DNA of 56,085 nt from Burkholderiales bacterium (GTDB taxonomy: Bacteria > Pseudomonadota > Gammaproteobacteria > Burkholderiales > Burkholderiaceae_E): assembly GCA_947487165.1 (NCBI GenBank), contig CANKWX010000017.1, forward strand, positions 1 through 56,085. The letters are read 5' to 3'. A program made the translations under genes and the position numbers. Positions 28,144 to 43,124 of this stretch are shown piece after piece (the stretch's first letter is position 1; each line of letters starts with the position of its first letter). A model generated the notes under the pieces. That model was not told the DNA's origin. It worked only from the letters and a program-made list of their open reading frames with translations, and did no database searches.

Positions 28144-29532
28144 TCAGCCCTTGCAAGCGGCAAGAAGCGAGTCGGTAAAAATGCGGACATTGCTGGATTC
28201 CGGCACATACAGCTCTCCTGGCAAGGTGTGCCTCCAAACCAGTTCGAAGTACTGTTCGATCTCGTCACGCCCATGTGCAGGGGTGTCAGGCGTTGCCACT
28301 GCGCGCGCGACTGCGCTTTCGAGTTGGTCAAGGTGTTCGACAGCCTCGACGAGCGGCGAATCACGATAGAACGCATCGCCCATTACAAGCACTTGTTTGC
28401 CCAGCAGCGCGGCTTCTGCACCCGATTTCGAGTTGATGGTGACTACGGCATCGGCTCGGCGCAGCACATCGAAATTATTCGTTGTGGGCGGCAGAAGTGC
28501 GACCGAGTCATAGCGCGAGAGCAGGGCAAGCAGACGATTCGCATCGATCGCCCCGACCATCGCCGGATGCTCCTTGATGGCAATACGGTGTGTTCGGGGA
28601 ACGGAGCGGGCCAGATAATCAACAAAAGCAATCTGGTCAAGGAACTGCGGCGAGCGCAGCGTCAGCGCCATGTCACCGGGCACGTGCAGCGGGTAGTAGA
28701 CAAATCGGCCCAGCTCATCAAGCGGCGTATAGGAGCCCGACAATCTGTAGCTGTCGATGAGCATGCGTGCGTGGGTCACAACATGCTGCCCAATATGACC
28801 GAACTCTTGCCGCTTGCCGTGCAAGTGCTTGTCGGCCAACTTCTGCATCAGGCGCTTCACATTTCGAATATTGACTATCTTGCGAGAGGCCGAGGCGTAC
28901 TGATGGGCATCCTTTTTAGGAATGACGATTGCCTGGCTCTGCAATGTTTTGTCGAGGTAGTCCTTGACCTCTTTGGACGCCACCTCGCCGAGTGATCCGT
29001 CGAGATGCAAAGCGGCAAATGAATTTTTCAAATAAAACAATCGCCCTCTGAAGAACGATGGCTCGATGAACCAGTTGTTTACTCCGCAGGTCCGGGCAGC
29101 AAAGTAGCTTGCAACGACTGACAAAAAGCCACCGAGTTCCTGGATCATTTGCACACTGGGATCTCGTGCATGCACCGAGACACAGGCTCTTTGCGCCAGC
29201 GACAGGCAGGCGAGGAGTTTCGATTGCAGGGCTTGCGTTTCGCGCACGCCGAACGCGAAGCGCTCGTGCGCAAACCAGTGACTCAGATTGCCCATCTGAT
29301 ATTCGGTTTCCGCTTTGCTGAGCGAGGCTTCATCCGCAACGATTGCGCGCTCGCGCTCATTGAACGAAAACACCTCCAGCCCTTGGGCTGCCAGCAACTC
29401 GGTACTGCGGTCGTCGAATGACACGAATGCCACCTGCCTTCCGCGATCGCGTAGTTCGCGGCCCACGGCTGCCCAGAAGACTGTCTGGTACTCGGCAAGC
29501 GTCGTAATCAGTAGCGTCGGAATGGCACTCAT
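28144..29532 (-). CDS. Capsule-polysaccharide-type GT-B glycosyltransferase (PF05159-like)
   Basis: A 462-residue protein resembling capsule polysaccharide synthesis proteins. The N-terminus LLITTLAEYQTVFWAAVGREL looks like the first strand and helix of a GT-B fold. The C-terminal half has RIAIKEHPAMVGA and VVTINSKSGAEAALLGKQVLVMG, the motifs of KpsC/KpsS-like Kdo transferases and other CMP-sugar users. Since no other enzyme here looks like a nonulosonic acid transferase, it is a candidate (inference). It overlaps the next gene upstream in ATGA. Exact activity is unknown. Confidence 0.75.
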   Translation of the reverse strand: MSAIPTLLITTLAEYQTVFWAAVGRELRDRGRQVAFVSFDDRSTELLAAQGLEVFSFNERERAIVADEASLSKAETEYQMGNLSHWFAHERFAFGVRETQALQSKLLACLSLAQRACVSVHARDPSVQMIQELGGFLSVVASYFAARTCGVNNWFIEPSFFRGRLFYLKNSFAALHLDGSLGEVASKEVKDYLDKTLQSQAIVIPKKDAHQYASASRKIVNIRNVKRLMQKLADKHLHGKRQEFGHIGQHVVTHARMLIDSYRLSGSYTPLDELGRFVYYPLHVPGDMALTLRSPQFLDQIAFVDYLARSVPRTHRIAIKEHPAMVGAIDANRLLALLSRYDSVALLPPTTNNFDVLRRADAVVTINSKSGAEAALLGKQVLVMGDAFYRDSPLVEAVEHLDQLESAVARAVATPDTPAHGRDEIEQYFELVWRHTLPGELYVPESSNVRIFTDSLLAACKG

Positions 29533-30929
29533 CGAGGCGACACCTCCACCGATGCGAGTGCGAGGCCGGTTATCGGGTGGCGCGCGGCGGCGATCGAGGG
29601 AGCCGCAAGCCCGGTCAGGCCGGCGAGAGCGGCGATGTCGCCACCCACCTGTACTGGATCAAGCCGTTTACCCCGTCGTACTGGCTCGGTCCACGCGCGC
29701 ATGCGCGAGGCTGCGCGCGAGCCAACCAAGTTGGCAACGATTGCCTGCGCTCGTTGCGCGGGTCGGCTGCTTGCTCTGCTGGAAGCCAGTGATGCCGCTA
29801 AAGAGGGGTTCCTGCGCGGCTGGTCGCGGATTGCAGCTATCACGACATGCGCAACTCGCTCGGCTGCTTTACCGTCATTAAGATAAAACCAAGGCTCGAT
29901 GAATTGCTCGTAAAGGCCAGGGAAGTCGAAAGACTTTTCAATTTCATCTGCGCGCTGGACAGCGTCGAGCAGTGCCTCCGGTGAATTGGCCTTGAAGCTG
30001 ATCTTTGACGGCAGCGTGCTGTGGCCAGCCAGGTGGGGGGTGTTCAGGTACTCAACCGACACAGGCAGTCGACCGAGCATGACCGATTCCACAGAGGTGC
30101 CGCAGTTCAAGTGCAAGACGCAGCGAGCGGGTCTTATTGCGTTGAGGACGCTGCCGGCACCCGCGACGGTGACGTTTGCAAACTTCGAAAACCGAGCCCG
30201 ATAGATCTCGGGGTTTTCGAACGGGTGAGGGCGTACGACGAAAGCCTGTGATGGCAGCGAGCTGGCGAGGGTCTCGACAGCAGCAAGCATGCCGTCAAAC
30301 GCGTCCTTCATCTCCCGAAGCAGCGTGTCGATGTAATTGGGCGCCCAGCCTGCCGCGAGAACGGCAGCACGCTCCTCTTCGGGCGAACTGGAGAACAGAG
30401 GGTTCACCAGAGTGAAATTCATGTTGACCAGCACATGACCATGTTGAGGGAATTTCAATAGTTCGCGCCATTGCGGCCCAGCGTAGTCAAATCGCGGGCA
30501 ACCCGTGACATGCAGTCGTTCGGGCTGCATGCCGCTGCCTGACACAAAGGCTTTGTGCAGTTGCGTGCCCCAGAAAAAATAACCAGACAGCAACTCAGCA
30601 AAACCGCTCTCCCGGATGTAGCCGGCGAGCACCGTTGGCGCATTGGCACCATTTTCCGCGAGGATGCCTCCCTCGGTGTCAAGTACGAACACCGGTACTC
30701 CCTGCTTTGTGTAACCTCGTACCAGCTCCAGGTTGACGGGTCGCGCGAAGTTGACGATCAGGGCGTCGAGACCAAGCAGGGGCACATCGACCGCCTGGTC
30801 GTAAAGCGGCACAAGTACTGTCTGTGCACCCATGACCGCCAAGCGATGCGCAAGCATCGTAGCCCCAGGCAGGTCCCGCTTCGGATGATCGACAATCAGG
30901 CCGACACGCATTGGCAATGGGGCGGTCAT
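29529..30929 (-). CDS. Surface carbohydrate biosynthesis protein, GT-B-like
   Basis: A 466-residue protein starting MRVGLIVDHPKRDLPGA after a short leader. The C-terminal domain contains FVVRPHPFENPEIYRARF and LHLNCGTSVESVMLGRLPVS. This arrangement occurs in CDP-glycerol/capsule-type GT-B transferases and in proteins annotated as surface carbohydrate biosynthesis. The last ~80 residues (SLAASLASSRASSR onward) are low in complexity and may be an amphipathic or disordered tail. It overlaps both neighbours by four bases, so it is probably made together with the 28144-29532 protein, perhaps acting in sequence. Function is inferred only. Confidence 0.65.
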   Translation of the reverse strand: MTAPLPMRVGLIVDHPKRDLPGATMLAHRLAVMGAQTVLVPLYDQAVDVPLLGLDALIVNFARPVNLELVRGYTKQGVPVFVLDTEGGILAENGANAPTVLAGYIRESGFAELLSGYFFWGTQLHKAFVSGSGMQPERLHVTGCPRFDYAGPQWRELLKFPQHGHVLVNMNFTLVNPLFSSSPEEERAAVLAAGWAPNYIDTLLREMKDAFDGMLAAVETLASSLPSQAFVVRPHPFENPEIYRARFSKFANVTVAGAGSVLNAIRPARCVLHLNCGTSVESVMLGRLPVSVEYLNTPHLAGHSTLPSKISFKANSPEALLDAVQRADEIEKSFDFPGLYEQFIEPWFYLNDGKAAERVAHVVIAAIRDQPRRNPSLAASLASSRASSRPAQRAQAIVANLVGSRAASRMRAWTEPVRRGKRLDPVQVGGDIAALAGLTGLAAPSIAAARHPITGLALASVEVSPR

Positions 30930-31852
30930 CGGGCCGGTGTCAGGACGCAGCGCGTGGAAGCATCCTCCAAGCCGGTCATCTCGAAGCGCATAGGGGGCTC
31001 GGGGAACAAACGGGGCACGCTGATGTAAGAGGCGGTGTAAAGCAGACGGCTGTGACCGGCCGCGACGCGACTGCCCATATGCAGGCAGCGCGAAGTTTCA
31101 ACCGCGAACGTCGTCAGGCGGGGTGCGGTCACCGAAATCATCTCCTCAGATCGGGCGCGGCCGAGGATCACCTCGTCCGATCTGTGACTCTTCAGTGAAA
31201 AGCCGAATCGATCAGAAACAGGGCCCGGGAGGAAGGTAAAGGGCCCGTTGTTGGTATCCGGCACATCAGTGAGATAGACGAATACCTTGATGGTTCGAAC
31301 ATCGTCATGATCGCGATGCCACAACTGGGAGTAGGCGAATGGCTCATCGGACGGACGCGACAAGGTCAGCAGGACGTCATCGAGCTGTGGCAGTTCGCCC
31401 AGTGCGTGACCGACCATGGCAAGCAAGTTAGGCTGGAGTGCGAAGCGCACGAATGGATTGTCAGCAGGCAAACGACCGTTGTGCTTGTCTTCGTCGAGCA
31501 GACGTGTCCAAAAGAGTTTGTGACCCACCTGCTGCGCGAGTTGTGCAGTATCCGCCCGGTCGAGCTTGAATTGACCCGCCTCACTCAGTGCGCCTAGTAG
31601 CGCCGGATCGATGATTGAATCGATCCTCGCGTGACCGTACTGCGCAAGCGAACGTCCGAGCTCCCGTGATTGCGGGTCTGCCGGCAACTCGTTCAAAAGT
31701 CTTTTGCGCTCGCGGATGGCACCACTGTGACGGGTGCGCAGAGCCACTTTGATGCCTCGTGCCAGCGGTGTACGGTTGATGTGCCAAAGCAGCCGCCGCC
31801 ACTGCGACGTTTTACTGCGGACAGGCGCAGTACTGGCAGCGGGAGCAGTCAT
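30926..31852 (-). CDS. PhyH-like Fe(II)/2-oxoglutarate dioxygenase family protein
   Basis: A 308-residue protein with the double-stranded beta-helix iron site of phytanoyl-CoA dioxygenase relatives. H179-x-D181 lies in LWHRDHDDVRTIKVFVYLTD, and the distal H258 (CLHMGSRV) is followed by R269, a likely 2-oxoglutarate ligand. NNGPFTFLPGPVS between them is typical of PhyH proteins. Its place between wzx and two glycosyltransferases suggests oxidative tailoring of a sugar or acyl group in the repeat unit (inference). The substrate is unknown. It overlaps the downstream gene in ATGA. Confidence 0.8.
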   Translation of the reverse strand: MTAPAASTAPVRSKTSQWRRLLWHINRTPLARGIKVALRTRHSGAIRERKRLLNELPADPQSRELGRSLAQYGHARIDSIIDPALLGALSEAGQFKLDRADTAQLAQQVGHKLFWTRLLDEDKHNGRLPADNPFVRFALQPNLLAMVGHALGELPQLDDVLLTLSRPSDEPFAYSQLWHRDHDDVRTIKVFVYLTDVPDTNNGPFTFLPGPVSDRFGFSLKSHRSDEVILGRARSEEMISVTAPRLTTFAVETSRCLHMGSRVAAGHSRLLYTASYISVPRLFPEPPMRFEMTGLEDASTRCVLTPAR

Positions 31853-33449: not shown

Positions 33450-34921
<1,472 letters not shown>

Positions 34922-34925
<4 letters not shown>

Positions 34926-35569
34926 CGAATCCTCGCAGGAACGCCAGTTGCGGTGCAACCGTCTGGCAGGTCGGTTGTGACGACGGCGCCAGCGCCAACC
35001 GTGCAGTCATGGCCGATACGCAGGCCGGGCAATACTACTGAACTCGCGCCGAGCAATACCCGGTCGCCCACGACAACACCACCGCCGAGCGTGCAGTTCG
35101 GTGCGACATGGACTGCTTCGCCGAGCCGACAGTCATGATCAACAATCGCGCCGTGATTGACGATGGCTGCGGGGCCGACGACGGCCGCTGGCGCGATCAC
35201 TGCCCCTGCTCCAACGAAGCCCCCTTCACCAAGTTCGGCGAGCTCCGATATCGTGGCGGACGGATGCACAATGGTCGCGGGCGTAGCTCCCAGCAGTTGC
35301 AGTTCGCGCAGCAGCGCAATTCGCACGCGGTTCAGGCCGATCGCTACATGCACGCGCGAACCGGGAGCCACTGGTGCGCGGACCGGCCGTTCAATCGCAC
35401 GGCCGCCCCACAGAGGGTCGCTGGCAGGCCGTTCGCGGTCGTCGCGGACCTCGATCGGATCAGTAAAGCCCGCCGCGAGCAGCGCGTCGATGACCACTTT
35501 CGCATGGCCGCCCGCGCCAACGAGCACCAGCGGCGCACCCGTCGAAGGTGGTAGGCGTTCAGTAGGCAT
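34922..35569 (-). CDS. PglD/NeuD-type sugar O/N-acetyltransferase
   Basis: A 215-residue enzyme. An N-terminal nucleotide-sugar-binding Rossmann part (PLVLVGAGGHAKVVIDALL) is followed by a left-handed beta helix of hexapeptide repeats from about residue 100 (VHPSATISELAELGEGGFVGAG, VNHGAIVDHDCRLG, VAPNCTLGGGVVVGD). H in NHGAIVDHD is the expected catalytic base region. Next to a PglE-type aminotransferase it most likely acetylates the 4-amino sugar to UDP-N,N'-diacetylbacillosamine. The start at 35569 overlaps neuC by 11 bases; the longer frame upstream is within neuC. Confidence 0.92.
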
Positions 35570-36710
35570 TGAGCTTCTCCAGCAGGTCGACGTCAATCGG
35601 AAGTGTGGCGAGCAATTCGACAATGCGCTCGCCGGACCGACCGTCGCCCCAGGGGTTGACTGCTGCAGGGCGAGGTTCAGCCAGTGAAGCGCGGATCGCA
35701 CTTGTGATGTCGGCGCGGCGTGCGGGAACATCCCGGACATTAGGCCCTCGTTCGCGTCCGCGCTGTCTGTCGCCGACGTTGATGACCGGCAGCCCGAAGC
35801 TTGCAGCCTCGATGATCCCTGAAGAAGAGTTGCCCAGCATCAGGTCGGCCGTCGCCATCCACGATACGAAGGATCGGCGCGGCAGGTGGCTCTCGATCTT
35901 GCGGACATTAGCGCATGTTCCGCGCCGATTGATCGCTGCGCGGGCCAGATCGCCGCCTGCGTCCGCATTGGGCAGAAGGATCATTGCCTGAACGTCAGCG
36001 TCTTCGAGTGCATCAAGGATGGCATCAACCTGTTCACCAGCCTTGCTCATCTGCTGGACGACAGGATGGAAGATCATCAGTGCGACTCGACGCGAAGCGT
36101 CGAGACCGGCCTCGCTGCAGAGTGTTTCGCGGTCGAATTCGGCGAGTTCGGTCAACCCGTCAAGCCCGGGTGCGCCAGTCACAAAAACACGATCAGGCCG
36201 CTCGCCCATCCGGAGGAGTCGCTCGCGCGCCCCGTTTGTCGCCGTGAAGTGCCAGTGAGCGAGTTTGCTCGTGGCATGTCGTATCGACTCGTCGATCGTG
36301 CCCGAGCGTTCGCCACCATGCAGGTGTGCCACCGGCAGGTTCAGGTGTATCGCAGCGATTGCTGCCGCGAGCATCTCGCCACGGTCGCCGAGCACCATGA
36401 CCACGTCGGGTGGATCGCATGCGAATTCCTGAGCGAGTGCTGCCAGCAGCGTGCCGACCGACGCCGCCATATGCGCCCCGTCGCTGTGGGACAGGTCGAC
36501 AGGTATCCGTGCCCGAATTGGAAGTCCGCTCGCCTCGATTTCAGTCACTGTCATGCCAAAGCGTGGCTCAAGGTGCATACCGGTAACGACGAGCTCGATC
36601 GAAAGTCGCGGGTCGGCGTGAGCGCGCCGAAGCGTTGAGCTCAACAGACCGAAATCGGCGCGAGTGCCTGTCAGGTAGCACACGCGTCTTCTCACTCGAG
36701 GGTATCCCAT
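35559..36710 (-). CDS. Hydrolysing UDP-sugar 2-epimerase, NeuC/LegG type
   Basis: A 383-residue GT-B-fold epimerase/hydrolase. It shows VCYLTGTRADFGLL, VVMVLGDRGEMLAAAIAA, HLHGGERSGTIDESIRHATSK and GNSSSGIIEAASFGLPVINVGDRQRGRER, all diagnostic for NeuC and its legionaminic counterpart LegG. The enzyme inverts C2 and releases UDP, giving ManNAc or, with the neighbouring aminotransferase and acetyltransferase, 2,4-diacetamido-2,4,6-trideoxymannose. The second option is favoured by context. It overlaps the synthase gene by 19 bases. Confidence 0.92.
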   Translation of the reverse strand: MGYPRVRRRVCYLTGTRADFGLLSSTLRRAHADPRLSIELVVTGMHLEPRFGMTVTEIEASGLPIRARIPVDLSHSDGAHMAASVGTLLAALAQEFACDPPDVVMVLGDRGEMLAAAIAAIHLNLPVAHLHGGERSGTIDESIRHATSKLAHWHFTATNGARERLLRMGERPDRVFVTGAPGLDGLTELAEFDRETLCSEAGLDASRRVALMIFHPVVQQMSKAGEQVDAILDALEDADVQAMILLPNADAGGDLARAAINRRGTCANVRKIESHLPRRSFVSWMATADLMLGNSSSGIIEAASFGLPVINVGDRQRGRERGPNVRDVPARRADITSAIRASLAEPRPAAVNPWGDGRSGERIVELLATLPIDVDLLEKLNAY

Positions 36711-37705
36711 TGCAGCAATTGACCGGCGTCCACCGTGCGCCCCAGTCGTCGGCCGACTAACGCCTCTAGCGTGACTGGCGGAATGCCTGTTCCCGGGCGC
36801 ATCGTTGTGAGATCCGCGCGGGTGAGCACTGTGCCGGCTGGCAGTGTTCGAGCCGCGGCGATGCTGCGCCTTACGAGGGCGCGGGTTGCAATTTCCACCG
36901 GTTGCGGAGCCTTGGTTCCGTCACCTAATGCCTTTTCCACGCAGCGGATCGAGCGCACCAGTTCGGCTAGCTCCGCTGATTCAAGGGACGCAGCATGGTC
37001 TGGGCCGGGTAACGCACGCGAGACCGTGAAATGCTTCTCGATCACGGTCGCGCCAAGGGCGACCGCTGCGACGGATATCTCGATGCCTCGGGTGTGGTCA
37101 GAGTAGCCCACTGGCCGCCCAAAGGCTTCGGCCATCGTCAGCATTGCCCGAAGATTCACGTCCTGCGGCTCAGCAGGGTAGGACGACGTGCAGTGCAGGA
37201 TCGTCAATTCAGCCCGGCCGCCAGGCGAGGCTGTATCGATCCAGGCAATCGCTTCTGCCACCTCATCCAGCGTGCACATCCCGGTCGACAGTATCATTGG
37301 CTTGCCGTATCGCGCGAGCTCAGCCAGGAATGGCTGGTTGGTGACCTCGCCCGATGGAACCTTGATACGCTGCACGCCGAGCCGCGCGAGCATTGCCATT
37401 GATGGTTCATCGAAGGCTGTCGACATGAACTCAATGCCGCGCTCGGCACAGCGCGCTGCAATCGCGATATGCGCAGCTTCAGAGAGCTCAAGCCCTGCCA
37501 GCATCGAGCGCTGGTCGCCATCCCCGGTAGCCCGTTTCTGGTACTCGGCACGCCCTGCTCCTGCGACCACCAGCGCATCAGCTCGAAAGGTCTGAAACTT
37601 GACCGCATCGGCGCCCGCCTGGTGCGCTATGTCTACCAGCAGAAGTGCCCGCTCAAGCGAGCCGTCATGGTTGACGCCCGCTTCGGCAATGATGAATGTT
37701 CCCAT
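36692..37705 (-). CDS. Nonulosonic acid synthase, NeuB/LegI type
   Basis: A 337-residue enzyme that condenses a 6-carbon acetamido sugar with phosphoenolpyruvate. The TIM barrel starts FIIAEAGVNHDGSLERALLL and has DAVKFQTF, ILHCTSSYPAEPQDVNL, GYSDHTRGIEI and IEKHFTVSRALPGPDHAASLE. The C-terminal SAF (antifreeze-like) domain follows from about 275 (RRSIAAARTLPAGTVLTRADL). It carries no CBS or extra domain, unlike the second NeuB homologue of the same operon. With the upstream enzymes it most likely makes N,N'-diacetyllegionaminic acid; N-acetylneuraminate is the alternative. Confidence 0.92.
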   Translation of the reverse strand: MGTFIIAEAGVNHDGSLERALLLVDIAHQAGADAVKFQTFRADALVVAGAGRAEYQKRATGDGDQRSMLAGLELSEAAHIAIAARCAERGIEFMSTAFDEPSMAMLARLGVQRIKVPSGEVTNQPFLAELARYGKPMILSTGMCTLDEVAEAIAWIDTASPGGRAELTILHCTSSYPAEPQDVNLRAMLTMAEAFGRPVGYSDHTRGIEISVAAVALGATVIEKHFTVSRALPGPDHAASLESAELAELVRSIRCVEKALGDGTKAPQPVEIATRALVRRSIAAARTLPAGTVLTRADLTTMRPGTGIPPVTLEALVGRRLGRTVDAGQLLQWDTLE

Positions 37706-37716
37706 TTGTCGCTACC

Positions 37717-38517
37717 TCACCAGACCGTCAGGCCACCATCAACCACAAGGTTGTGACCGCTTACATACGTTGATGCGTCAGAGGCAAGAAACACAAACGC
37801 GCCTGTCAACTCGTCTGCGCGAGCCATCCTGCCCAGCGGCACGCGTGCGCCATAGCGTTGTTGAAAGGTTTCGTTCTGACCGCTGTAAACACCGCCCGGT
37901 GTGACCGCGTTGACGCGCACACCGCGCGCGCCCCAGTAAGAGGCGAGGTATTTCGTCAGGCCCCACAGGCCTGCTTTGCTGGCGCTGTATACCGCTGGCG
38001 TATTGATCGCGCGGCCTTCATACATCGACCCATCGTAGATCCGCTGGTCTGGCGCGACGATGCCGTAGACCGAAAGTGTATTCACGATGCTGCCGCTGCC
38101 GCGCTCAGCCATACCTGGGCCGAACACCTGGCACGCCAGCATCGCGCCAGTCAGATTCACCCCCATCACCTGGTTCCAGTCTTCAACCGGAAAGCTTTCG
38201 AAAGGTTCGAAGAAGTTCGGGCTCTTGGTCGCTGCGTTGTTCAATAGAACGTCGACTTTACCGACCGTCGACTCGACTGCGGTCCGCAGCGCTTCGAGTG
38301 AGTCCCTCTGCGTGATGTCTGCCCTGAAAGTACGCATCGCTGCAGCCGGATGACTGTCTCTGATTGCTGCCAGACGATCGTCATCGGTGTCGACCACTGC
38401 CACCGTCGCACCGTGGCGTAGCAGCGCATCTGTAACTCGCGCGCCGAGAATCCCGGCTCCACCAGTAATCAGTACGACCTTTCCGGCCAGTGAGAAGTCT
38501 TCGGGTGCTTTGCTCAT
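37717..38517 (-). CDS. SDR-family oxidoreductase (PtmA-like)
   Basis: A 266-residue classical short-chain dehydrogenase with VVLITGGAGILGARVTDALL, LLNNAAT, VNTLSVYGIVAPD, catalytic YSASKAG and PGGVYSGQNETF. It resembles PtmA, encoded in the Campylobacter legionaminic acid cluster beside the CMP-transferase gene ptmB, and the same neighbourhood is seen here. The precise step of PtmA-type proteins is unsettled. The stop lies 11 bases before the LegI-type synthase start; the gene overlaps the CMP-transferase gene in ATGA. Confidence 0.88.
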   Translation of the reverse strand: MSKAPEDFSLAGKVVLITGGAGILGARVTDALLRHGATVAVVDTDDDRLAAIRDSHPAAAMRTFRADITQRDSLEALRTAVESTVGKVDVLLNNAATKSPNFFEPFESFPVEDWNQVMGVNLTGAMLACQVFGPGMAERGSGSIVNTLSVYGIVAPDQRIYDGSMYEGRAINTPAVYSASKAGLWGLTKYLASYWGARGVRVNAVTPGGVYSGQNETFQQRYGARVPLGRMARADELTGAFVFLASDASTYVSGHNLVVDGGLTVW

Positions 38518-39197
38518 TTTTCGGCCTCTGCCATCAGCATCTCAACCAGTCTGAAATCAAGGGCTGAGTCGATGTCGATCGATCGTTCGCGAGGCATCAC
38601 ATGCAGCCGGACTCGGCCGTCCCACAGTCCGAGCTCAAGCGTACTGCGGTGCCAGACGTAGACCGAAGCATTCATCGACCAGACAGGCGGAGCTGCCTGT
38701 CGACTCGCCGTTCCCCGGCCGGGCACGATGAGCCCGATGTTCCCGTCGGGCTTTCGTTCGATCATGTTGAAGTAGGGGTTCTTCTCGGAGGGGTAGCCGG
38801 TGATCACCACATCGACCGTGGCGTCCAGCAGCGCGAGGCATTCAATGACATCCTGAACCAAGCGCAGCGGCGAAGTGGGGTCGAGATCAACAATGCGGTC
38901 AACCTTCATCCCGAGCTGTTCCATCGTCTCGACTGCATGCCGGATCACGGGAAGCTTGGGCGCGCTTGATGTCGATAGCTCGGCCGGGCGTCGGAAAGGC
39001 ACTTCTGCGCCATGCTCGCGGGCAATCGCCGCGATCTCGTCGTCATCAGTGGAGACCACCACGCGGTCAATCCCAGGGGTAACGAGCGCCTGCGCGATGG
39101 TGTGTGCGATCAGCGGTTTCCCGGCAAGGGTCTTGATGTTTTTTCGTGGCAGGCCGGTTGAACCGCCACGCGCGCAGATCGTACAAAGTGTGCTCAT
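38514..39197 (-). CDS. CMP-nonulosonic acid cytidylyltransferase (NeuA/PtmB type), first copy
   Basis: A 227-residue GT-A-like nucleotidyltransferase with the signature CTICARGGSTGLPRKNIKTL for CTP binding. It also has GKPLIAHTIAQAL, VVVSTDDDEIAAIA, DLDPTSPLR and the metal-binding ending RSIDIDSALDFRLVE. It activates a sugar acid to its CMP form before transfer. Overlap with the PtmA-like SDR gene mirrors the ptmA-ptmB order. A second homologue in the same operon (42426-43124) is clearly different in sequence, so each may serve a different sugar acid. Confidence 0.9.
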   Translation of the reverse strand: MSTLCTICARGGSTGLPRKNIKTLAGKPLIAHTIAQALVTPGIDRVVVSTDDDEIAAIAREHGAEVPFRRPAELSTSSAPKLPVIRHAVETMEQLGMKVDRIVDLDPTSPLRLVQDVIECLALLDATVDVVITGYPSEKNPYFNMIERKPDGNIGLIVPGRGTASRQAAPPVWSMNASVYVWHRSTLELGLWDGRVRLHVMPRERSIDIDSALDFRLVEMLMAEAEK

Positions 39198-40174
39198 GCT
39201 GCAGCTCGAAGAGATTCGTTTGCGCGGATGGCGAGCTCGGCGCTCGCCAGCCCGTCGGTCAGATCCGGCACGGCATCGCGATTCGCACCGATTGCGTCGA
39301 CCAGTTCACCCATGGCAGCGTGATATGTCCCGGCAACATCGAAGTCATCGGGCGACGCGAGCGATTCCTCTTGGCCACCACGCCTGCGCAGCACAAGCCT
39401 GCGTTCAAAAAGGTCCCATTCAAGACTCGCCTCGTCGCCGACAATCTCCCACCGGCGCATCGGTGTGCGACTTGCGTAGTCGAGCCCGACGGCGACGGCC
39501 GGGCCGCCTCGACGTCCCAGCACGATTGCTGCCGCATCTTCTGTGTCGATCTCGAGTCGGCTGTAGTGGCCCCCTACCGCGTAGACGGTGTCGAACTCCC
39601 CGAAGAGCCATCGGGCCGCGTCGAGCTCGTGGACCAAGTCGAGCACTACGCCACCTCCGAGCCGTGTGCTTGCGCCGTAGCCGCTGCGATAGTCGGTTCC
39701 ATTACGCCAATCGGGCAGCCACTGTCCGACCTGAAAGCTTGCCCTAACCGGCCGTCCGATTGCGCCAGAGGTGATCTCGTTGCGCAGTCGGCGAACCGAT
39801 GTCAGAAAGCGCAGGTTGCAGCCTGACAGTGTTGCTGGCGGTGATGCGATCGAAGCGAGCATTGATCGCACTCGATCCAGTTGGCAGCGGTCTGTCACGG
39901 CGGGCTTCTCTACATAACAGGCAAGCCTCGCGCAGAGCAGCGCTTCAAGCGCATCAGCATGGAGTGCCGAAGGCGTCGCTACGACCGTGATGTCAGGCGC
40001 GAGCCCGATCACGGTGTCGAGGTCGGGTACCACTTGCGCCCTCACCGCTTCGCTCCAGGCGTCGCGAGTACCGCTGCGTCGCGCGATGATCAGTTCACAG
40101 TCAGGCCAATGGGCCCGTATGTTATTCGCGTGACGACGACCTATCGAACCTGACCCGACGACCGCGACGCGCAT
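39194..40174 (-). CDS. Gfo/Idh/MocA family oxidoreductase
   Basis: A 326-residue NAD(P)-dependent enzyme. The Rossmann part begins RVAVVGSGSIGRRHANNIR, followed by VVATPSALHADAL and CYVEKPAVTDRCQ, the EKP motif of the family. The C-terminal sheet domain has GGGVVLDLVHELDAARWLFG, with the catalytic-type D..H pair. PtmF of the Campylobacter legionaminic cluster belongs to the same family. The start at 40174 overlaps the stop of the 751-residue fusion gene by one base (TGATG), indicating coupled translation. The substrate is not known. Confidence 0.88.
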   Translation of the reverse strand: MRVAVVGSGSIGRRHANNIRAHWPDCELIIARRSGTRDAWSEAVRAQVVPDLDTVIGLAPDITVVATPSALHADALEALLCARLACYVEKPAVTDRCQLDRVRSMLASIASPPATLSGCNLRFLTSVRRLRNEITSGAIGRPVRASFQVGQWLPDWRNGTDYRSGYGASTRLGGGVVLDLVHELDAARWLFGEFDTVYAVGGHYSRLEIDTEDAAAIVLGRRGGPAVAVGLDYASRTPMRRWEIVGDEASLEWDLFERRLVLRRRGGQEESLASPDDFDVAGTYHAAMGELVDAIGANRDAVPDLTDGLASAELAIRANESLRAAA

Positions 40175-42429
40175 CAGCGCTGTCCCAGCCAAGGCTCAAG
40201 ACGTTCAAGCGCGAGCCAGAAGCCGGAGCCGTTGTCTTTGTGGCCCTGCCAGATTTCGGGTATGAACGAAGCCTTCGGCGCGACCCGATCAAGCACTTCA
40301 CCGACCATCGCGAAGTCGATGTCACCCTCGCCGATCTGTAGTCCTTCGCCATCGACGCCGGCGGCGTCCACCATGTGCATGTGTGCAGTCAGTGGACCGA
40401 CCTGTTCGAGGAAGTTCTTGAAAGAAAGGTGCATGTGGTTGCAGGCGAGACTGGAATGGGAAACATCCAGGCAGACCCTGTATCCATAGCGCGTGCAGAA
40501 GGCGGCAATATCCCCTGCATCCACAAAAAGGTTGTGGAAGCGCTGCCCGCCGAAGTGCCAGGGGAAGGGGGGCATGGTTTGCGGGATGATCTCGACGCCT
40601 GCTGTGTCTATCTGACTGAGCGACTCCGCGATTCGCTCGTAGAGAGCGGAGCGTTGCGAGACCGGCAGCGGCCCATCCATGCTGAATCCACCAGCGTTGA
40701 TGACGATCAGTGGTCGCGGCGCCTTAGAAAAGCGCGGCTTCAAGGCGCGCGTGACATCGACGACTCGCTGCAATTCGTCAATCGATCGTCGGCGATAGGA
40801 CAGGTCATCGGCGCACAGGTCCAGGACATGGTCGCCAGCGAATAACTCCGGTGCGTGAACCACGAAGTCGAGGTCGTAGCGCTCTTCCAGGAACCGGCCT
40901 GGGTCCACATCCAGATCTTTATAGGACAGGTGAAACTCGACCATGTCAAAGTTGGACATCGGCAACATCCGGCGTAAGTCGTGGTGACGAACCGGGATTC
41001 CGAATGGCCTGTTAAATCGGTAGTGGCGCGCCGCCGAGCTGCCATCTTCCAGATCTGAAGGAAAGAACACGTCGCCCTGTGCGAACGCACGAGTCGCTCG
41101 CCGGCCGATAAGTGCATGTTTTCGGTAGGGAGATAAGCCTTGGCCAGGACTGCGGACCGAGATGGCTTCCTCTACGATCGTCTCGCCAACTTCGATTGCC
41201 CGTCCTGCGACAAGGCTCTTGCCCAGAACCTCCCGGTTCATTAGTTCGCCTTGGGTGATCCGTCTTTCATCGACAGAGCCAAGTGCCTCTTCCACCTCGC
41301 GAATGCCTTGTACCATCGCGGCAAACTCGGCAGGAAGCAGGCTCACCCGATGATCGTTACCTTCCATTGATCTGTCGATCGTGAGGTGCTTCTCAATGAC
41401 CTTCGCGCCGCGTGCGACCGCGGCAATAGGCACCGAGATGCCACGCTCATGACCTGAATAGCCGACAGGGCATTCGCCGATCTTCTCGAGCCGTGCCATG
41501 TACTTCAGGTGGATGTCTTTGAACGGCGCGGGGTAAGTCGAATTGACATGAAGCAGCACGTACTGTGCTTTCAATCGCTTGAGCAGCTGAACCGAATCGC
41601 GAATTTCGGCTTCGGTGGACATGCCGGTGGAGACGATAAGTGGCTTGCGTGTTGCAGCAAGCGCTTCAATGAGTTCGTGGTTGGTCAGGTCGGCAGACGC
41701 GACTTTATAAGCGGCCATGCCATATTCTTCGAGAGCCACAAGGCTTGCCTTATCCCAGGGCGTACACAGCGGCAATATGCCCCGGGCTTTGCAGTGGTCG
41801 AAGGCTGCAAACATTTGCTCATCACTGAGCTGGAATCGTGCGAGCAGGTCCAAGGTGTACTGAGCGCCGAGGTCTGCAGACGCATCGTCCGCGTCTCCAG
41901 CATTGCTATAAAGCGCTTCCATCCGCCGCATCTGGAATTTCGCGCAGTTCGCGCCGGCGGCGACTGCCTCATCAACCAGACGCATCGCGAGCTCGAGATT
42001 TCCATTGTGATTGTTGCCAATCTCCGCAATCACGAATGCCGGTGACTCGGCGTCGATACTGAACTCTCCGATCTGCAGTCGTGCCGACCGGCGGCTAGCG
42101 ACGCCCACGAGTCGGTTTTGGCGGTCCACCAGCGGAACGAAGGCAATGCGATCGGACAGTCGCTCTTCGATACGCTCGGCAGGCTCGTGTTCCGAACAGA
42201 CAACAAAGGTCCTGTTCATGACTGCCGATACAGGCTGGTTGAGATCGATGTCGGATTGCTCAACGAGCCAACGACGGAAATCGCCGTCGGTCAGTACCCC
42301 TTCAACGATGCCACTGTCAGTGATTGCGACAAGGATGCTGCCCTTGTTCTCACTGATCTTGCGCAGTGCCGTTAACAGCGACTCTTCGGTGAAGACCGCG
42401 TATTTCGCTATGGAGCGGTCGATGATCAT
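40174..42429 (-). CDS. CBS-NeuB synthase-SAF-TIM-barrel sugar isomerase fusion
   Basis: A 751-residue four-module protein. Residues 1-118: CBS pair ([32 protein letters not shown]). About 130-395: NeuB-type PEP-condensing barrel with [44 protein letters not shown] and [20 protein letters not shown]. About 399-460: SAF domain. About 470-751: xylose-isomerase-like TIM barrel (sugar phosphate isomerase/epimerase type) with [29 protein letters not shown] and FIPEIWQG providing likely metal ligands. The SAF and barrel modules are in one frame with no stop, so this is a real fusion in the sequence. It probably makes a second sugar acid and also acts on its precursor or product (inference). Confidence 0.9.
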
Positions 42430-43124
42430 TGCGCGAAGGCCTCCTTCATCAATGTTTCGACAATGGCAAAATCAACGAGTGAATCAATTTCCCAGCTTTC
42501 CTCCTCGGACATCACCTGCATCGCGATTCGGCCTCCCAGTCGATTTCCTGTTTTCAGAAGGAGCTCAGTTTTCGTCAGGTAGATTGATCCGTTCTCGCGA
42601 AAGCGTCTGTCCTCCTGCCGGATATCCTGACGCCGAGGCCTGTTCAGATAGTCATATGTCGCGCGAGGATTTTTTTCGTCCTGCCAGAAGAACGAATGGC
42701 TCTCGCAAGTGCTCAAGAGGGAATCGGCGCCGATGCGCTCAAAGGTCTCGATGGCCCGATCCAGCGCCCCTGGGTGCCGCAATGGGGATGTAGGCTGCAA
42801 CAATACGACGACATCGGGCGAGAACCCTTCATCTTGCAGCCGTCGTATCACCTCGATCAGCACCGGCTCTGTAGCCGTCGTATCTTGCGCCAGTTCTTTC
42901 GACCTCAGCCAAGGCACTTCTGCGCCTGCCTCTCGCGCTATGCGCGCAATCTCCTCGCTGTCGGTCGAGACGATTGTTCGCGCAATACGCGGGCAAGCGA
43001 TGGATTGACCAATCGACCAATCGATAAGAGGACGGCCTGCAATTGACCGGATATTTTTGCCTGGAACACCCTTTGAGCCGGCGCGCGCCGGGATGATGGT
43101 TAAGTAGGTTGGGTTTCCACGCAT
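42426..43124 (-). CDS. CMP-nonulosonic acid cytidylyltransferase, second copy
   Basis: A 232-residue cytidylyltransferase with [19 protein letters not shown] (CTP loop), [39 protein letters not shown] and [16 protein letters not shown]. The ending [14 protein letters not shown] carries the conserved metal-binding acids. It is closer to classic NeuA/NeuA-like sequences than the copy at 38514-39197. It is encoded directly before the fusion synthase, overlapping in ATGA, so it most likely activates that enzyme's product. Confidence 0.9.

Follow-up and report, generated by a model that had tools for sequence, protein, structure and literature searches.

We analysed a window of 56,085 nucleotides from a Burkholderiales bacterium (contig CANKWX010000017.1), and in particular a minus-strand gene that an earlier note, made from the sequence alone, had described as a single-frame fusion of a CBS pair, a NeuB-type synthase, a SAF (antifreeze-like) domain and a TIM barrel. 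The open reading frame (ORF) listing confirms a frame of 751 codons without interruption at exactly 40174-42429, an interval whose plus-strand frame 1 contains stops, and Pfam recovers all of the modules (Table 1). The matches to NeuB (278.8 bits, gathering score 22.1) and SAF (35.0 bits, gathering score 21) are accompanied by two CBS stretches (E 5.7e-12, the best at residues 67-114) and by the AP_endonuc_2 or xylose-isomerase-like barrel at residues 493-729 (E 1e-19), the latter two also above their curated cut-offs; the C-terminal region thus does match an isomerase-like TIM-barrel profile, as had been supposed. In its Pfam scores and its catalytic residues (see below), the protein is a member of the NeuB/SAF family of nonulosonic-acid synthases. 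Because a model of the full-length fusion reached a predicted template modelling score (pTM) of only 0.66, the placement of the domains relative to each other is uncertain.

Table 1. Features of the fusion gene and its surroundings in the window (aa, amino acids; SDR, short-chain dehydrogenase/reductase).
Feature	Position	Strand	Basis
CBS-CBS-NeuB-SAF-AP2 fusion, 751 aa	40174..42429	-	ORF list and Pfam
CBS pair, with approximate outer limits at residues 12-114	42088..42396	-	Pfam CBS; start from secondary structure
NeuB condensing barrel, residues 151-386	41272..41979	-	Pfam NeuB (E 4.8e-83) and alignment
SAF domain, residues 405-461; Ser427 replaces NmeNANAS Arg314	41047..41217	-	Pfam SAF (E 2.2e-8)
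C-terminal sugar-isomerase-like TIM barrel, residues 472-751	40177..41016	-	Pfam, model and Foldseek
NeuA-type cytidylyltransferase, 4-base overlap with fusion start	42426..43124	-	ORF list and profile search
Gfo/Idh/MocA oxidoreductase, directly downstream of fusion	39194..40174	-	ORF list and Pfam
Second nonulosonic-acid set: NeuA2, SDR, NeuB2, NeuC, NeuD, CBS-LegC	33450..39197	-	ORF list and profile search

The substrate pocket of the synthase half was mapped onto the Neisseria meningitidis synthase NmeNANAS (1xuu), for which 13 active-site residues are given in PMC6795526. Like NmeNANAS, the fusion combines a NeuB barrel with SAF, and eight of the 13 residues are kept (Glu25, Gln55, Thr110, Lys129, Tyr186, Ser213, His215 and Glu234 in NmeNANAS numbering), as is His236; H327 and H348 of the fusion correspond to H215 and H236. 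H236 of NmeNANAS has a metal role. The set formed by the catalytic Glu and Lys and the metal His residues (E136, K164, Q166, K242, H327 and H348) is present in 77 of 77 aligned fusions. However, the fusion differs from NmeNANAS by its added CBS pair and second barrel, and by having Arg168 at the position of H57. All 86 fusions have Arg at position 168, where all 13 ordinary synthases have Tyr or Phe.

A further difference concerns Arg314, which is described in PMC6795526 as the sole SAF residue directly in the active site, where it contacts N-acetylmannosamine (ManNAc), and whose replacement in R314A leaves the enzyme inactive. In the fusions this position (Ser427) is Ser in 77 of 77 proteins, while Arg occupies it in 12 of the 13 ordinary synthases that these loci encode, the thirteenth having no letters there; a second alignment of 86 fusions (the 77 and nine more) has 85 Ser and one Ala, the latter in a divergent protein. 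This switch from Arg to Ser, relative to ordinary synthases of the same loci, is new, and together with the Arg168 pattern it fits an enzyme that no longer recognises the N-acetyl group. The fusion also scores 318.4 bits with the N-acetylneuraminate synthase equivalog model TIGR03569, below the cut-off of 399.65, which the ordinary NeuB2 nearby (36692-37705) exceeds with 430.1 bits. By both the Ser and this score, the fusion falls outside the N-acetylneuraminate synthases. KDN (3-deoxy-D-glycero-D-galacto-nonulosonic acid) is made from mannose, and the pocket residues fit a mannose-type substrate rather than ManNAc.

The C-terminal barrel (residues 472-751) was modelled with AlphaFold2, with a mean predicted local distance difference test (pLDDT) score of 92.7. 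The nearest solved folds found by Foldseek are MJ1311 (3wqo; E 6.9e-11, template modelling (TM) score 0.68), UlaE and D-tagatose or D-psicose 3-epimerases, with sequence identities of 11-21% among the 50 best rows, and a profile of the barrel searched against PDB sequences reached MJ1311 only. The overall fold of the barrel is that of these D-tagatose 3-epimerase-like proteins, and the Asp and His of their single-metal site are shared according to the alignment with the MJ1311 sequence. The barrel differs from them in a long conserved PPxPWHFGG loop, in being always fused to NeuB in our samples, and in Gln617, which stands opposite the Glu of the LENMP motif of MJ1311.

In an alignment of 86 barrels that reaches down to 26-29% identity, R481, H500, H525, Q617, D655, H658, H685, E725, W727, Q728 and H730 are invariant. 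This conservation bears out the earlier suggestion that the barrel may be active, in that it points to a probably working site. The metal ligands that had been suggested stand in part: D655, H658, H685 and E725 are in the invariant set and would be expected to bind a metal, but E613, judged from sequence and strand ends, is probably not a ligand, as it starts strand beta-5 (613-617, with Q617 at the end of the strand), lies opposite a Lys in MJ1311 and is kept in only 84 of 86 sequences, with Asn in one and Val in another of the three divergent relatives. In ketose 3-epimerases, the Glu residues of beta-5 and beta-8 form a catalytic and metal-binding pair that acts as bases. The fusion barrel has the fold of these enzymes and keeps E725; the beta-5 Glu is replaced by Gln617, so the pair is incomplete. 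An epimerase-like fold with an invariant Gln predicted at the usual Glu position is a second new feature of the family. With a single remaining Glu, one can more readily envisage a one-base 1,2-isomerisation than an epimerisation at C3.

We searched for the C-terminal domain in genome_contigs, which covers 84,980 species, and kept 80 loci for detailed analysis. At least 532 stretches encode a relative of the domain, a count based on two patterns, from which the number of genes may differ. The fusion is widespread, and the rarity attributed to it in the earlier note was therefore overstated; the 80 loci alone derive from Proteobacteria, Cyanobacteria, Firmicutes, Bacteroidota, Chloroflexi and others (phyla assigned by us). 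As many as 72 of these loci have the proposed order of modules, with CBS, NeuB-SAF and barrel in a single frame, and this order is thus not a product of chance. The remainder comprise four loci without the CBS part (L071, L085, L086 and L088), three cut by a contig end (L043, L064 and L081) and one broken by frameshifts (L033). We rejected the last as a case of natural separation of the modules, as its CBS, NeuB and barrel parts are spread over different frames in a metagenome assembly.

The barrel was also sought in four overlapping genome samples (1,260 genome searches in total, with the class and phylum samples overlapping), whose counts include the centre genomes, in which its presence was already known. 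With a limit of E <= 0.001 in the class sample and E <= 1e-10 in the three phylum samples, carriers numbered 3 among 274 genomes of the class to which the window belongs and 5 among 398 genomes of its phylum; in the phylum of a cyanobacterial locus (L015) they numbered 22 among 292, and in that of a Sediminibacterium locus (L046) 3 among 296. None of these 3, 5, 22 and 3 matches is a standalone barrel; all fall within open frames of at least 617 residues. The C-terminal barrel is therefore an obligate partner of the synthase at the sensitivity used. Two remote single barrels (E 4e-5 and 7e-5, in frames of 306 and 299 aa) were left uncounted, and the stricter limit of E <= 1e-10 would hide remote single barrels of such weak score. 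Two gene clusters with CBS-less fusions each also encode an AP_endonuc_2 barrel of about 280 aa that stands by itself (L110 3582-4427 and L111 5888-6715). On present evidence, the architecture is real and the window protein belongs to a widespread family, of which one relative has been studied genetically.

Nine fusions without a CBS part (L071, L085, L086, L088 and L107-L111) form one clade with support of 1.0. In 9 of 9 members, the neighbour of the fusion is an HddA-type GHMP kinase with a related CBS domain (in L071 as two frames). The divergent CBS-less proteins of L112 and L113, used as outgroup, lie outside this clade, and no CBS-HddA-type kinase is present within their stretches. The CBS pair thus apparently moved between synthase and kinase, and its presence on either the synthase or the neighbouring kinase suggests a shared signal; it probably senses a nucleotide or CMP-sugar (CMP, cytidine monophosphate) and may exert the allosteric control suggested in the earlier note. 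In L110 and L111, the two loci checked for them, GmhA-like and HddC-like genes that score below the equivalog cut-offs lie beside the fusion. One can conceive of a heptose-related product for this clade, and given such heptose-type neighbours in one clade, products may differ between clades.

Gene neighbourhoods were compared in 84 loci, namely the 80 kept loci, the window, L005, L007 and L008. Because the scan loci span at most 10 kb per side, and some less, presences of neighbours are lower bounds. A NeuA-like gene, defined as one sequence cluster, occurs in 68 of the 84 loci, and in 51 it is adjacent on the same strand with a gap of less than 150 bases (39 upstream and 12 downstream), often overlapping the fusion. 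Other nonulosonic-acid genes are less frequent: NeuC is present in 3 loci, NeuD in 4, LegC-like genes in 13 and NeuB2-like genes in 14, and none of the four lies within the locus stretch in 64 of 84. ManNAc is therefore usually not supplied by neighbouring genes; the usual unit consists of the fusion and NeuA, with no neighbouring gene for ManNAc or a diamino sugar. Nearby GDP-mannose genes were dropped as evidence, since a cluster of ManC-like proteins of 475 aa (named by eye) occurs in only 7 of the 84 loci.

In the window, the fusion appears to be part of an operon, as it overlaps the genes on both of its flanks; downstream, the ATG of the Gfo/Idh/MocA oxidoreductase at 40174 overlaps the fusion stop by 1 base (the ORF list starts this gene at a TTG at 40192). 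The second nonulosonic-acid set behind the fusion has relatives in the same order in a Sphingopyxis locus (L010).

The best link to a known product is provided by Serratia marcescens, in which capsule types KL1 and KL2 carry neuA and neuB (Anderson and colleagues, PMC9000132). The neuB gene was described there as a 2241-bp ORF with pfam03102 and a COG1082 isomerase/epimerase domain, and the authors noted the latter domain without assigning it a function in the passages concerned. Their 2022 knockouts of neuB, or of neuA and neuB, had fourfold lower sialic acid in a thiobarbituric assay and failed to accumulate capsule, and complementation brought sialic acid back. The wild-type capsule contained KDN and N-acetylneuraminic acid (Neu5Ac) in a ratio of about 20:1, and both were lost when the variable region was deleted (PMC9000132). 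Together with the Ser in 77 of 77 fusions, this ratio upholds the earlier view that the NeuB-type enzyme makes a sugar acid other than plain sialic acid.

Among 30 Serratia genomes that we searched, five have the full fusion, with 55-56% full-length identity to the window protein, and these five contain no second NeuB, the sole other match being to CBS domains. In two Serratia loci (L072 and L116) the fusion ORF is exactly 2241 bp long and the gene order is wzc-neuA-neuB-wzx (wzc and wzx labelled by eye). Since both length and order equal those published, they support the Serratia neuB as a homologue, and orthology to NeuB of strain UMH9 (KL1) would follow from length, domain content and gene order. 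Like UMH9 NeuB, the window protein combines a synthase with a C-terminal isomerase/epimerase (COG1082) domain in the same length class, with NeuA directly upstream. UMH9 NeuB is required for capsule and normal sialic acid, in a strain with KDN and little Neu5Ac (PMC9000132). However, CBS is not mentioned in the passages of PMC9000132 concerned, and the window has a second full nonulosonic-acid gene set beside the fusion. By analogy with the Serratia genetics and sugar analysis, the product of the window fusion would be KDN, measurements of which come solely from S. marcescens capsules (PMC9000132). The word "isomerase" is absent from a 2025 Serratia follow-up (PMC12077157), and "CBS", "isomerase", "fusion", "fused" and "KDN" are all absent from a study of nonulosonic-acid clusters in Vibrionaceae (PMC7371886). 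As to whether the fusion had already been characterised, a point raised in the earlier note, what is likely the same fusion has been studied genetically in S. marcescens, but not biochemically.

Our preferred reading, which we hold tentatively and at slightly under an even chance, is that the fusion is a bifunctional entry enzyme for CMP-KDN, or for a close analogue among the non-acetamido nonulosonic acids, and that it carries the isomerase which supplies its aldose. The NeuB barrel with its SAF lid would condense phosphoenolpyruvate (PEP) with a mannose-configured hexose, the fused metal-dependent barrel would make this aldose from a ketose of central metabolism by 1,2-isomerisation and hand it over locally, and the neighbouring NeuA would activate the product with cytidine triphosphate (CTP). 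The candidate ketose step would be fructose to mannose, or the same conversion of the 6-phosphates. The observed basis for this proposal consists of the architecture, the conservation, the neighbourhood and the loss of the N-acetyl-binding Arg, to which the KDN-dominated product of the Serratia homologue adds an argument by analogy. A bolder version, which we consider possible but doubtful, is that the barrel is an undescribed single-metal isomerase of fructose to mannose (or fructose 6-phosphate to mannose 6-phosphate) that works only inside the fusion, that fusion and NeuA together suffice to convert a common ketose, PEP and CTP to CMP-KDN, and that KDN is common but overlooked on bacterial surfaces, those of cyanobacteria included.

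It is important to consider several points that weigh against the entry-enzyme proposal. In many bacteria ManA already makes mannose 6-phosphate, so a fused isomerase might be redundant. In the pocket, Phe112, Asn184, Phe288 and Arg314 of NmeNANAS are replaced by Trp225, Ser297, Val401 and Ser427, Asn74 could not be placed, and the changes of N184 and F112 are not explained by mannose as substrate. The Gln617 at the usual position of the beta-5 Glu is compatible with an altered or dead site. An adjacent NeuA is missing in 33 of 84 loci, some through contig ends, and no NeuA-like gene lies within the stretches of five Crocosphaera/Cyanothece loci (L012, L016, L020, L028 and L031). As for the Serratia analogy, identity between the window protein and the Serratia fusions is about 59% over the catalytic part, KDN was measured in the wild type and the region deletion rather than in the neuB mutant in the passages concerned (PMC9000132), and no enzyme assay of the fusion architecture turned up in our searches of the open-licence PMC literature.

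Of the alternatives, one that we regard as unlikely, though deserving attention, is that the synthase condenses PEP with mannose 6-phosphate to KDN-9-phosphate, and that the barrel removes the 9-phosphate or adapts a phosphorylated intermediate. The best supported animal KDN pathway runs from mannose 6-phosphate through KDN-9-phosphate (PMC13214540), and the NeuB of Leptospira interrogans has a C-terminal phosphatase domain for which such a role was proposed (PMC3438082). The Leptospira protein resembles the window fusion in joining a nonulosonic-acid synthase and a C-terminal enzyme in one chain; however, its partner is a phosphatase domain and not a sugar-isomerase barrel (PMC3438082), and we rejected the window protein as a fusion of this type because of the different partner. 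The sialic acid of Serratia was assayed after growth in defined medium, and the M9 used contains glucose (PMC9000132), on which mannose 6-phosphate should exceed free mannose. The invariant R481 follows the first barrel strand, and in comparisons of the barrel with three E. coli proteins, endonuclease IV was the best (E 7.4e-4) and those with UlaE and Hyi were weak, which makes a hydrolytic reaction possible and so also counts against an isomerase. The barrel superfamily does include metal-dependent phosphoesterases, and endonuclease IV has a three-zinc centre. In this weak alignment D655, H658 and H685 fall on Asp, His and His, but the Glu of the ENTAG motif lies opposite P616, one off Gln617, and the Asp and His of VDRHH lie in a gap. 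The three-zinc ligand set thus appears incomplete, and the barrel would not count as an endonuclease IV. The nearest folds are moreover sugar epimerases, and the N. meningitidis NeuB takes unphosphorylated ManNAc (PMC6795526).

The same epimerase folds, and the constant attachment of the barrel to the synthase in our samples, could instead mean that the barrel works on the product of condensation and epimerises or isomerises the ulosonic acid, with a final sugar other than KDN in most species. The HddA-like kinases and the GmhA- and HddC-like genes beside the CBS-less fusions are consistent with this idea. It is nonetheless very unlikely in our view: the sugars found in Serratia are KDN and some Neu5Ac (PMC9000132), R168 and S427 are common to all clades (with the one Ala at 427), and a 3-deoxy-2-ketoacid has no stereocentre at C3 on which a ketose 3-epimerase could act. 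Least probable is a non-catalytic barrel that serves as lid, scaffold or allosteric part. Gln617, where MJ1311 has Glu at a usual catalytic and metal position, and the CBS domains, which already give the protein regulatory parts, would be in keeping with it, but the remaining residues predicted for the active site are invariant in all 86 sequences, even at 26-29% identity, which is unusual for a dead domain.

Bacterial capsules seldom seem to contain KDN (PMC9000132), yet many phyla, and probably hundreds of species, carry a fusion of which one homologue is linked to a KDN capsule. The link of the Serratia neuB to sialic acid, mainly KDN, was already known (PMC9000132); that the barrel is seen only within the fusion in our samples, and that most loci lack NeuC and LegC, is new. 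If the entry-enzyme reading is true, KDN-type sugars would be widespread and predictable from one gene with its Ser427 marker, and the barrel would be a candidate answer to where bacteria obtain mannose for KDN.

Other observations concern the surrounding cluster. The LegC-type aminotransferase (33450-34958) begins with CBS domains, which gives the window cluster two CBS-bearing enzymes. Two proteins encoded at 29529-30929 and 30926-31852 have no Pfam match at limits of E 0.001 and 1, and the cluster of relatives of the former is represented in 9 of the 84 loci. The source genome also encodes a third NeuB-type synthase (genome G000, contig C112; locus L002, 1501-2502), which adjoins a NeuC-like frame, scores 466.6 bits as an N-acetylneuraminate synthase and has, by eye, Arg at the Arg314 position.

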